Assembly (NCBI GenBank): GCA_902756345.1
Contig: CACVQR010000004.1
Span: 124,001 to 188,000, forward strand
DNA: 64,000 nt
From: Fibrobacter succinogenes
GTDB lineage: Bacteria; Fibrobacterota; Fibrobacteria; Fibrobacterales; Fibrobacteraceae
Direction: 5' to 3'
The translations under genes and the position numbers were made by a program. Shown here piece by piece: positions 4,408 through 59,977 of the stretch. A model generated the notes under the pieces. The model ran no database searches. It was not told the origin of the DNA and saw nothing but the letters and a program-made list of their open reading frames with translations. The first letter of the stretch is position 1. Each line of letters begins with the position of its first letter.

Positions 4408-4505
4408 GTTAGTAGACAGTAGGAAGTTAGAAGTAGAAAGTATTTACAATCGCGGCTTCGCCGCCTAGCTATTAAACTGTCTACCGTCTACTGCCTACTT
4501 CCTAC
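4408..4505. repeat. Inverted heptamer-repeat element between groES and groEL
   Basis: The left arm (about 4408-4441) is a degenerate 7-bp tandem array with units such as GTAGTGG, ACAGTAG and GAAGTAG. The right arm (about 4475-4503) is its inverse, with units CTGTCTA, CCGTCTA, CTGCCTA and CTTCCTA. Between them is a small hairpin GCGGC-TTC-GCCGC (about 4454-4467). The arms can pair over roughly 28 bases, placing a long hairpin in the groESL transcript. The same family recurs at 25886, 31192, 51130/51228 and 52966. Confidence 0.85.
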
Positions 4506-4545
4506 TCTTTCAACAAAAAGTTTTAAATAAAAAAGGAAAACAACA

Positions 4546-6177
4546 ATGGCAAAGCAACTTAAGTTTGATGTAGCAGCTCGCGAATCCCTGATGAAGGGTG
4601 TCGACAAACTCGCCAACGCAGTCAAGGTCACCCTCGGTCCTAAGGGCCGTAACGTGATGATCGCAAAGGCCTTCGGTGCCCCGAACGTCACCAAGGACGG
4701 TGTGTCTGTCGCTAAGGAAGTGGAACTGGAAGACGCCTACGAAAACCTCGGCGCCCAGATGGCCAAGGAAGTCGCCAACAAGACGAGCGACGCTGCTGGT
4801 GACGGTACCACCACCGCTACCGTGCTCGCCCAGGCGATCACTCGCGAAGGCCTCAAGAACGTGGCCGCCGGAGCAAACCCGATGGACATCAAGCGCGGTA
4901 TGGACGCCGCCGTTGACGCCGTCATCGAAGAAATCGGCAAGATGGCCGTGAAGATCAATGGCAAGGAACACATTGCCCAGGTCGCAACGATTTCTGCAAA
5001 CAACGACCCCGAAATTGGCGAACTCCTCGCCAACGCTATGGAAAAGGTCGGCAACGATGGCGTCATCACCATCGAAGAATCCAAGACCGCTGAAACCGTT
5101 CTCGACGTTGTCGAAGGCATGCAGTTCGACCGCGGCTACCTCTCTCCGTACTTTGTCACTAACACCGACAGCATGGAAGTAAACCTCGAAAACCCGTACA
5201 TCTTGCTGTACGACAAGAAGATTTCTACCATGAAGGATTTGCTGCCGATGCTCGAACACGTGGCAAAGCAGGGCAAGTCTCTCCTCATCATCGCCGAAGA
5301 CGTCGATGGCGAAGCTCTCGCAACGCTCGTCGTGAACAAGATGCGCGGCACCCTGAAGGTCGCCGCCGTCAAGGCTCCGGGCTTTGGCGACCGTCGTAAG
5401 GCCATGCTCGAAGATATCGCAATCCTCACGGGCGGTATGCTGGTTTCCGAAGACACGGGCGCCAAGCTCGAAGACGCTCCTGTGACCGTGCTCGGCCAAG
5501 CCAAGTCCATCACCATCACGAAGGACAACACCACAATCGTCGAAGGTGCCGGTGACGCCGCTTCTATCAAGGGCCGTATCGCCCAGATCAAGAAGCAGAT
5601 CGAAGCTACCACCAGCGATTACGACCGCGAAAAGCTCCAGGAACGTTTGGCCAAGCTTGCTGGCGGCGTTGCCGTGATCAAGGTCGGTGCTGCTACCGAA
5701 GTCGAAATGAAGGAAAAGAAGGACCGCGTCGACGACGCCATGCACGCAACCCGCGCCGCTGTCGAAGAAGGTATCGTTCCGGGTGGTGGCGTTGCCCTCA
5801 TCCGCGCCGAAAAGGCTATTGACGCCCTCAAGTTCGATAACGCCGACCAGAAGACTGGTGCAGCCATCATCCGCCGCGCTATCGAAGAACCGCTCCGTCA
5901 GATCGTCACCAACGCTGGCCTCGAAGGCTCTGTCGTGGTGAACAAGGTGAAGGAAGGCAAGGACAGCTTCGGTTACAATGCCAAGACTGACACCTACGAA
6001 GACCTCATCAAGGCTGGCGTGATTGACCCGGCCAAGGTGACCCGTACGGCTCTCAAGAATGCATCCTCCATCGCTTCGATGATCCTCACGACTGACTGCG
6101 TGATCGCAGAAAAGAAGGAACCGAAGCCGGCAGCTCCTGCCATGGATCCGTCCATGGGCATGGGCGGCATGATGTAA
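4546..6177 (+). CDS. groEL: Chaperonin GroEL (Hsp60)
   Basis: 543 residues, standard length. It forms the ATP-driven double-ring folding chamber in the cytoplasm. The ATP-binding [14 protein letters not shown] motif, the hinge and apical segments ([23 protein letters not shown]), [12 protein letters not shown] and the Gly-Met-rich tail MGMGGMM are all present. AAAGGAAAA lies about ten bases before the ATG. It is transcribed with groES, but the two are separated by a long potential hairpin that could change their relative expression. A strong terminator follows at 6209-6238. Confidence 0.98.
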
Positions 6178-6208
6178 TCGGCTAGCCGCTAGATTCTACT
6201 CCTTATGG

Positions 6209-6238
6209 ACGTCCGGTTCAAAGAACCGGACGTTTTTG
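6209..6238 (+). terminator. Rho-independent terminator of groESL
   Basis: Perfect 11-bp arms ACGTCCGGTTC (6209-6219) and GAACCGGACGT (6223-6233) with a 3-base AAA loop, followed by a run of Ts. Confidence 0.93.
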
Positions 6239-6302
6239 TATAAAAATTATTTGGATTATGAAGGCGGGAGTCTGCTCGGCAAAGGCGCTTTCTCGGCGGG
6301 AT

Positions 6303-57849: not shown

Positions 57850-57916
57850 CTGCTTGAGTTTAAACTGCACGCTTGCGCACTACCATTATTTTTTGTATAT
57901 TGTGTCTGGAGCGATT

Positions 57917-57952
57917 TTGACACCTAGCTGTCAAAAAAATTGTTTATCTTTG
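57917..57952 (+). promoter_or_regulatory. Palindrome and -10-like box before the topoisomerase gene
   Basis: TTGACA (57917-57922) and TGTCAA (57929-57934) form an 18-bp imperfect palindrome; TATCTTTG follows at 57945-57952. TTGACA could be a -35 element, but the spacing to the box (22 bases) is long. The palindrome may be an operator. The ATG is 37 bases past the box. Confidence 0.45.
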
Positions 57953-57988
57953 TACCGACTAAATTTTTAACGAGAGTTTCTAATTACT

Positions 57989-59833
57989 ATGGCAGCAGCA
58001 AAGTATACCGAAGACAGCATTAGAACACTGGAATGGAACGAACATATCCGCGAACGTCCGGGTATGTACATCGGCAAACTCGGCGACGGCAACAGCCCCG
58101 ACGACGGCATTTACGTGCTGGTCAAGGAAATTATCGACAACTCCATCGACGAATTCGTGATGGGTGCCGGCAAGCAGATTATCATTGACATTGAAGACCA
58201 TAGCGCCCGCGTGCGCGACTTTGGCCGCGGCATTCCGCTCGGCAAGGTCATCGACTGCGTATCGAAGATTAACACCGGCGGCAAGTACGACTCCGAAGCC
58301 TTCCAGAAGTCGGTAGGTTTGAACGGTGTGGGTACCAAGGCGGTGAACGCGCTTTCGACCAAGTTCATCGTCAAGAGTTTCCGCGACGGCCGCGTCAAGG
58401 AAGCCGAATTCAGCAAGGGCAAGCTTGTCCGCGAAGAACGCGAAAAGAATACGACCGAAAAGAACGGTACCGAAATCTATTTTGAACCGGACGCCAGCAT
58501 TTTCAAGAATTTCCGCTTCTTGCCTGGCTACATGGAAGAAAAGGTATGGAACTACGCCTACCTGAACAACGGCCTTTCGCTCATCATGAACGGCAAGACC
58601 TACAACAGCCCGAACGGCCTTCTGGACCTGTTGCAGAACCACGTGGACGATTCTATCCGCTACCCGGTGGCCCACTTTAAGGCAAGCGATATCGAAGTCG
58701 CCTTTACCCACGGCAACCAGTACGGCGAACACTATTACAGTTTCGTGAACGGCCAGCACACTACGCAGGGCGGTACGCACCAGCAAGCCTTCCGCGAAGG
58801 CATTGTGAAGGGCGCCCGAGACCATTTCAAGAAGGACCTGGATCCGGCCGACGTGCGCAACTGCATTATCGGCGCCATCTCCGTGCGCATCCAGGAACCG
58901 GTTTTCGAATCGCAGACCAAGACCAAGCTCGGCTCGACGACGGTCGCTCCGGGTGGCGCCCAGCTGCGTACCTGGATTGTAGACTACGTGGCCTCGCAGC
59001 TCGACAACTACTTGCACAAGAATCCGGAAACCGAAAAGGCACTTTTAAACCGCATTACGCAGAACGAACGCGAACGCAAGGAAATCGCGGGCATCAAGAA
59101 GCTTGCGAACGACCGCGCGAAAAAGGCGAACCTGCACAACCGCAAGCTGCGCGACTGCAAGATTCACCTGACCGACACGAAGAACGCGCTCAACCGCGAA
59201 ACCATGATCTTCATTACCGAAGGTGACTCTGCATCGGGTTCCATTACTAAGGCACGCAATGTGCAGACGCAGGCCGTGTTCAGCTTGCGCGGTAAGCCGC
59301 TGAACAGCTTCGGCATGACCAAGAAGGTGGTGTACGAAAACGAAGAATTCAACCTGTTGCAGCACGCTCTCGATATCGAAAACGGTCTCGAGAACCTCCG
59401 CTACGACAAGGTGATTATCGCGACCGATGCTGATGTAGACGGTATGCACATTCGTCTGCTCTTGATGACCTTCTTCTTGCAGTTCTTCCCCGAACTCGTA
59501 GAACAGAAGCACCTGTTCATTCTGCAGACACCGCTTTTCCGCGTGCGCAACAAGCAAGTGACCAAGTACTGCTACGACGAAGTGGAACGCGACAAGGCCG
59601 CCAAGGAAATCGGCAAGACCGGTCTCGAGATTACTCGATTCAAAGGTCTCGGCGAAATTTCTCCGGAAGAATTCGGACAGTTCATCGGCGAAGACATGCG
59701 CCTTGAAACGGTGGTGCTTCCGCCCGATGCCTCGTTCGGCAAGATGCTCGCCTACTACATGGGGAACAACACTCCCCAGCGTCAGGACCACATCGTACAG
59801 AACCTCCGCGCCGAAGCCGTGGAAGAACTGTAG
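57989..59833 (+). CDS. Type IIA DNA topoisomerase B subunit (ParE/GyrB family)
   Basis: 614 residues. The GHKL ATPase part has [30 protein letters not shown] and [15 protein letters not shown]. The transducer domain is followed by the TOPRIM motifs [12 protein letters not shown] and [17 protein letters not shown], and the C-terminal [16 protein letters not shown] segment. The length, about 190 residues shorter than E. coli GyrB, fits topoisomerase IV subunit B (ParE-like). It would pair with a ParC-like A subunit, which is not in the window. Start context is GAGAG some 13 bases before the ATG. Confidence 0.93.
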
Positions 59834-59977
59834 TGATTAGTGATGTGTAATGAGAGATGTGTGATGAGTAATTATTCATTTCCTCATAGAGGACAACTCT
59901 ACTAAGGTGCTAAAGCACCAAGTATCGTTTATCTCATTTGTCATTCCACATTACACATTGCATGAGAGTCACCTAGC
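59834..59977. repeat. Inverted heptamer-repeat element after the topoisomerase gene
   Basis: Left arm units ATTAGTG ATGTGTA ATGAGAG ATGTGTG ATGAGTA (about 59837-59872); right arm CTCATTTGTCATTCCACATT with ACACATTGCATG (about 59935-59964), inverse in orientation. In the middle is the hairpin GGTGC-TAAA-GCACC (about 59906-59919). This is the clearest case of arms around a core hairpin. Confidence 0.85.

Follow-up and report, generated by a model that had tools for sequence, protein, structure and literature searches.

What are the short tandem arrays that stand at gene boundaries in Fibrobacter, and how do they come to be there? The question is raised by a 64,000-nucleotide stretch of a Fibrobacter succinogenes genome, here called the window (assembly GCA_902756345.1, contig CACVQR010000004.1, positions 124,001 to 188,000; G000:C4:124001-188000 in our sample). 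The genome (3.36 Mb, 99% complete) belongs to the genus Fibrobacter. A preliminary description of the window had proposed that about ten intergenic gaps hold one dispersed family of elements built from degenerate 7-bp repeats. We found that Fibrobacter genomes carry hundreds of short, mostly intergenic heptamer-repeat elements, with several unrelated sequences. Their gain, loss and swapping at the same spots in close species points to an active copying process.

The 7-bp period was quantified in a 944-kb sample of the window's own genome (28% of it), with gene ends for the gap and array statistics taken from a simple longest-ORF (open reading frame) caller. In a 464-kb sample, 26 lag-7 segments were found in 37 kb of intergenic DNA vs 5 in 427 kb of coding DNA. 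Every other intergenic lag gave at most two segments, the multiples 14 and 21 excepted. Dinucleotide-based shuffles of the same 464 kb yielded no lag-7 segment, so that period 7 is commoner than in shuffled sequence. Over the 944 kb, at a threshold of 12, lag 7 had 134 segments, lag 6 had 8, lag 8 had none and lag 9 had 15. The lag-7 segments, some of them within ORFs, sum to 7,116 bases, or 8.7% of the intergenic length. Merging gave 132 elements, which extrapolates to ~470 for the genome, and 107 of the 727 gaps hold an array. Tandem units of exactly 7 bp are thus over-represented in intergenic DNA. Across the whole genome, an 18-base AGTAG-family pattern had 354 matches, compared to 3 for its reversed control. 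The dispersed arrays of the preliminary description are therefore real, and the phenomenon is larger than it had claimed.

Three main families are of equal weight and make up most arms in the genome: AGTAG(GA/AC/GC) with 58 arms, ATGTGNR with 58 and AATTCRG with 60 (944 kb). The proposal of a single family thus held for a dispersed group of degenerate arrays, but several families are present, not one. GTGGTTA, previously listed as a type apart, belongs with the GTAGACA (AGTAG) family, with which its units run in phase. TTCTAAG, GACGAGA, TAGGTTA, TTAGTCA and TAGAGAC are further families in the genus. The elements found in the window are as follows.

4403-4442, plus strand: left arm, AGTAG family (TGGTTAG TAGACAG TAGGAAG TTAGAAG TAGAAAG), beginning at the groES stop codon TAG (4403-4405); the gap is empty or holds other families in relatives
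4452-4465, no strand: core hairpin CGCGGCTTCGCCGC, flanked by the two arms and conserved among species whose arms differ
4476-4506, minus strand: right arm, reverse complement of the AGTAG family, upstream of groEL
8098-8174, no strand: two-arm AATTCRG element between a small HD-domain gene and mutS; it folds (z -6.3)
25887-25923, minus strand: one-arm AGTAG array overlapping the rapA stop codon, absent in relatives L049, L050 and L061 and shorter in L048
28924-29019, no strand: two-arm element, TTCTAAG family, between rapA and the next gene (L048 and L049 lack it); the left arm alternates two heptamers, AGTTGGC AGAACTT (period 14), and the right arm is TTCTAAG
29775-29825, no strand: two-arm ATGTGNR hairpin straight after the stop of an RDD-family gene (fold z -6.7); the same site in L049 has the GACGAAA family
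29852-29914, no strand: weak remnant of the AATTCNG family (lag-7 score 7.4)
31190-31243, plus strand: one-arm AGTAG array at the EPSP synthase stop, with an intrinsic-terminator-like hairpin after it; the same site has the GACGAGA family in L048-L050
44751-44777, minus strand: AACCACT (GTGGTTA) array in frame in the RNase HII gene, residues 145-153; the loop is empty in L048 and has another repeat in L049
51130-51256, no strand: two-arm AGTAG element with a terminator hairpin between the arms, absent in G049
52967-53012, plus strand: left arm of AAGTAGG units passing in phase into AGTGGTT units; the same site in G049 has the AATTCRG family
53019-53043, minus strand: short right arm CTGTCTACTGCCTACTG of the element whose left arm is 52967-53012 (sequence reading and folding)
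53950-53979, minus strand: one-arm array, AATTCCG family, nearly identical in G049
59831-59880, plus strand: left arm, ATGTGNR/ATGAGTA family, at the stop of a gyrB/parE-like gene (sequence reading and folding)
59934-59962, minus strand: right arm of the element whose left arm is 59831-59880 (sequence reading and folding)

An Rfam search gave no match for the arrays, only a tRNA at 6459-6532. When the 14 previously named positions were rescored lag by lag, lag 7 was the best among lags 5-10 at 13. Position 28919 itself tied with noise; the strong 7-bp array of that element starts at 28980. All named arrays exist, but the one at 44752 lies in the RNase HII gene and is not intergenic. They differ in strength: 29891 is a weak remnant of two to three units, and those at 25886 and 51130 are short.

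The units have roughly five fixed and two variable positions, and they behave as a vocabulary common to the whole genome. Neighbouring units in an arm resemble each other little more than they resemble units from distant loci; in the AGTAG family, units of one arm agree at 5.57 of 7 positions vs 5.35 after shuffling units across arms. The number of 21-mers common to arms of different loci is at or moderately above the shuffled-unit level. Among the 40 locus pairs with the most common 24-mers, exact matches end at heptamers and never include the centre. Since loci draw on a common vocabulary but have neither centre nor flanks in common, purely local slippage and master-element copying both fit poorly.

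The arms follow a directional rule. Inverted pairs were counted as two arms of the same family at most 130 bp apart. In all 36 (26 ATGTG and 10 AGTAG), the arm that reads AGTAG or ATGTG precedes its reverse complement, and the reverse order was never seen; same-strand pairs occurred once in each of the two families. The reverse order would make an equally good hairpin, so the observed order is a rule of direction. The two inverted arms around a hairpin or terminator, as described earlier, were recovered at many sites. Both arms of a locus nearly always belong to the same family. At AGTAG loci the usual pair is one arm of plain AGTAGGA units and one in which AGTAGAC/GGTAGRC is frequent, and either may come first. 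At position 6 of the ATGTG unit, counted on the assumption that the register begins at the loop, the facing bases agree in 20% of units vs 35% when loci are shuffled (none of 1000 shuffles gave so low a value), the mismatches being mostly T.T and A.A. The AGTAG family, sampled in other genomes, showed a trend in the same direction that was not significant. Folded, such an element forms a stem interrupted by a mismatch roughly every 7 bp, e.g. at 29773-29825 (z -6.7). Selection for perfect hairpins was rejected, as arms of the same locus are less complementary at the variable positions than shuffled arms.

Comparison with other species revealed rapid turnover at fixed sites. In relatives with a mean flank identity of at least 90%, gaps of the window's genome had the same family in 12 comparisons, an array only here in 31 and a different family in 6, several of these comparisons sharing one site. 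At window position -10493, for example, ATGTGGG is found here, GTAGGAA in G013 and G059, and AACTTAG in G033 and G015. GTAGGAA at 31197 is replaced by GACGAGA in relatives, and at 52966 by GAATTCR. The rapA-proB gap reads TAAtctATG or TAAtttATG in L049, L050, L053 and L061; other relatives have two to five heptamers or other families there. Near relatives differ by two to three units at this gap and at C3:118277. Arrays common to close species are 95-100% identical in most pairs, with rare indels of 7n.

The groES-groEL gap was followed through 30 species. Seven states (empty and six unit types), assigned by eye, required at least 14 changes on a partly unresolved GroEL tree (16.8 after shuffling, minimum 6). 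Filled alleles have common flanks and, with L134 as the one exception, a GGCGGC..GCCGC-type core. The left and right arms change family together and in register; core and flanks are kept. In small samples, units seen in arms of the less common families turn up again in further arrays of the genome concerned.

Abundance is specific to lineages. Whole-genome counts of AGTAG/ATGTG/AATTC are 354/220/241 here, 340/73/10 in the nearest relative (G013), 0/34/0 in G001 and 55/20/332 in G049. Such species-specific counts indicate that families rise or fall independently; between species, only ATGTG and AATTC counts are correlated.

The array at 44752 lies in rnhB, the RNase HII gene (44454-45209, minus strand), where the AACCACT units encode the loop SLTTSHQPLTT. 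The array is absent from this loop in L048, and L049 has a different dispersed repeat in frame, GATCCTTCGACT...GCTCAGGATGAC. These alleles show directly that such repeats reach a site by insertion and that one place can take up unrelated repeats. No useful relatives of rnhB came out of plasmid or viral collections. The internal loop of RNase HII is hypervariable across Fibrobacter and takes in repeats inserted in frame. GATCCTTCGACTTCGCTCAGGATGACA, a second dispersed repeat, lies at sites where relatives have heptamer arrays: the L049 rnhB loop (in frame), the L049 gap orthologous to 8090-8172, the L164 (G049) gap orthologous to window position 51130, and L159 (G087).

Many arms had been said to reach directly to start or stop codons and so to shape mRNA ends. 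Contact with stop codons was borne out: where a gene 3' end faces an array, the array edge lies within 6 bp of the stop codon in 64 of 110 cases, 47 being expected from random placement in the same gaps. Genes touched by AGTAG arrays end in TAG in 15 of 25 cases vs 29% overall (P = 0.001), so that the array often supplies the stop codon. There is little preference for 3' or 5' sides, with arrays in 58 of 433 tandem, 26 of 147 convergent and 23 of 147 divergent gaps (944 kb). That the arrays act at mRNA ends through their sequence is doubtful, since one site may be empty or hold any family, even at groES-groEL. Supplying stop codons in all frames was rejected as a purpose: AATTCRG has none, and arms lie in both orientations relative to genes.

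The data call for a genome-wide process that keeps the 7-bp register, mixes units, brings no interior with it and works on both sides of a site with the same strand. Our favoured, still tentative explanation is that these are dispersed, largely selfish elements, written by repeated short templating from existing arrays. Each has a single arm or a pair of arms made of degenerate 7-bp tandem units, and paired arms are inverted and point inward. Beyond the observations given above, we infer that DNA synthesis templated on other arrays in the genome gives rise to new arrays and to new arms. A growing end would pair via the ~5-bp core, copy one or a few 7-bp units and re-pair elsewhere. Such templating would keep the 7-bp register, mix the units of one vocabulary in near-random order, carry no centre or flank and allow one family to expand in a lineage; slippage may afterwards alter the unit number by multiples of 7. 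The elements would last mainly in intergenic positions, where selection tolerates them. Units barely more alike within an arm than between distant loci, exact matches that stop at the heptamers, same-site exchange, the in-register change of groES-groEL arms, families that rise or fall independently, the near identity of most arrays common to close species, with their rare 7n indels, and the rnhB insert all favour templated writing. Several points weigh against it. No writing enzyme was found and no array was caught mid-synthesis; plain template switching predicts neither the one-family coupling of both arms nor the mismatch excess at variable positions; some unit order is shared between loci in the AGTAG and AATTCRG families; and the lineage-specific abundance could also reflect loss in sister species.

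The arrays might instead resemble miniature inverted-repeat transposable elements, i.e. non-autonomous families whose ends are heptameric sites for a hypothetical transposase and which are inserted or excised as a unit. This would account for precise presence and absence at orthologous sites, lineage-specific expansion, the fixed orientation of the ends and the insertion inside rnhB, and the ends are inverted arms of one family, although not identical ones. We consider it unlikely, as empty and filled pairs, read by eye, had no target site duplication, copies have no common interior, many have a single arm, the groES core stays while its arms change, and Y1 transposases of the RAYT (REP-associated tyrosine transposase) type are absent from the window's genome. 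A second main rival, equally unlikely, is that selection keeps the arrays as bulged mRNA-end hairpins, or as binding sites for a tandem-binding protein of drifting specificity. The family identity of paired arms, their single orientation and periodic mismatches, the strong folding at several loci (z -6.7 and -6.3), the stop codon contact and the high conservation of arrays common to species would fit. Against such selection, the same gap is empty or holds any family in close relatives, groES-groEL included, no gene orientation class is preferred, several unrelated families coexist in one genome, and one array lies inside a gene.

Replication slippage favouring 7-nt steps, a general idea cited in PMC4692102, would let each locus originate independently. 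It agrees with the differences of two to three units at rapA-proB and C3:118277 and with the few arrays that are long and homogeneous. It is already strained by the likeness of units within and between loci, gives no account of the same three vocabularies at ~60 arms each, of inverted arms or of family exchange at one site, and is distinctly unlikely. Very improbable is a dedicated machine, telomerase-like or other, that adds heptamers in fixed 7-nt steps to 3' ends at breaks, both ends receiving the same strand type. Period 7 in every family whatever its sequence, the lack of target duplication and arms that always point inward, as extension of both 3' ends would give, speak for it. Both arms sharing a family speaks against it, as does the absence of RVT_1 from the window's genome and several array-rich relatives, of Ku and of any candidate gene. 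There is also a slim chance that Fibrobacterota have a machinery for de novo writing of heptamer arrays where genes begin or end. It would advance 7 nt at a time regardless of sequence, extend both sides of a site with the same strand and switch vocabulary between species.

Searches for known enzymes led to three rejections. RAYT/IS200 mobilisation was rejected, with no Y1_Tnp in G000 (99.2% complete), G013, G098 or G049; reverse-transcriptase synthesis (telomerase-like or retron-type), with no RVT_1 in the window's genome or several array-rich relatives; and Ku-dependent end joining, with Ku absent in 10 of 10 genomes tested. The hairpin nuclease SbcD, whose loss was considered as a factor that might permit arrays, is patchy, occurring in about half of the Fibrobacter species and in the window's genome. 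AGTAG was slightly higher without SbcD (P = 0.035, uncorrected and with phylogeny not controlled) and ATGTG had the opposite trend, giving no consistent link. comEC was present in all ten genomes tested, array-rich and array-poor alike, and is therefore uninformative on the arrays.

Further heptamer arrays were observed. Contig C1 of the window's genome has five copies of a 37-bp unit at 135061-135244 (L015:15061-15244), each of about four AATTCRG heptamers, i.e. a higher-order tandem array. At L023:15398-15532, a long ACCTCAC heptamer array (~19 units) continues in phase from an ATGTG-family element. G076, from another class of the same phylum (L044 and L045), has the unrelated heptamer families CAGTAGC, CTGGATT, AGTGACG and TTTCCAC, some of them arranged as inverted arms. 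Further heptamers, e.g. GTAGAGA and GTAGCCA, occur in other genera of the phylum. The heptamer phenomenon extends past the family of the genus Fibrobacter.

Repetitive extragenic palindromes and bacterial interspersed mosaic elements (REP/BIME), mobilised by RAYT, are intergenic inverted pairs around hairpins, with GTAG/CTAC at their outer ends and hundreds of copies. The Fibrobacter elements are likewise intergenic inverted pairs, but GTAG stands at the outer foot in the AGTAG family only, and they are built of tandem heptamers rather than single palindromes, in a genome without a Y1 transposase. Neisseria DNA uptake sequence dialects are species-specific vocabularies at hundreds of sites, with inverted pairs downstream of genes. 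Unlike these, the window's genome has several unrelated vocabularies, with three families of similar weight in place of one dominant dialect.

That heptamers are over-represented in bacteria has been noted before, but no explanation has been given (PMC4692102). Arrays of them between genes have been described in Calothrix, Nostoc and Xanthomonas (PMC4692102), in Beggiatoaceae, Microcystis and Bacteroidetes (PMC4679880) and in Geobacter (PMC2700814), and some of these show 7-nt indels and empty sites in relatives. The previously suggested resemblance to the short tandemly repeated repetitive (STRR) sequences of cyanobacteria is fair as to kind: like Calothrix STRR and the Nostoc GGGGA(C/T)T repeats (PMC4692102), the Fibrobacter arrays are degenerate, exact 7-bp intergenic tandems at many loci per genome. 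They differ in their unrelated unit sequences and in having several families of equal weight in one genome, and we found no description of same-site family exchange, fixed inward arms or periodic mismatch for the cyanobacterial repeats. The ~185 heterogeneous GGGNATC arrays of Xanthomonas also have a conserved core with variable positions and some inverted pairs, and most are flanked by the same genes in two species and vary in length and sequence (PMC4692102). Unlike this single G-rich family, proposed to form quadruplexes, the Fibrobacter units are not based on G-tracts and their families replace each other. Another likeness is the TAACTGA direct repeat of Beggiatoaceae, cyanobacteria and Bacteroidetes: intergenic heptamers next to codons, patchy, with 7-nt indels, other heptamers mixed in and relatives lacking the repeat between the same genes (PMC4679880). 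It is one unit, forward, before start codons in its main host; the Fibrobacter arrays have no gene orientation, paired arms and many families. Comparison of unit lists gave no match of the Fibrobacter families to described STRR, TAACTGA or GGGNATC units.

No description of such arrays in Fibrobacterota was known to the preliminary description, and none was found for Fibrobacter in the searched literature, which mostly excludes subscription papers; the S85 genome paper does not mention such repeats. Heptamer arrays as such are already known. What is new is the presence of several families per genome, the rules of orientation and mismatch, and the exchange of families at fixed sites. In ~40 well-assembled species of one genus, the same sites are empty, filled or refilled by unrelated 7-bp families, so that comparative genomics and mutation accumulation can test directly where the 7-bp step comes from. 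Gaps in conserved operons, such as groES-groEL, tolerate rapid exchange of ~100-bp hairpin elements, and this matters for reading intergenic hairpins as regulators.

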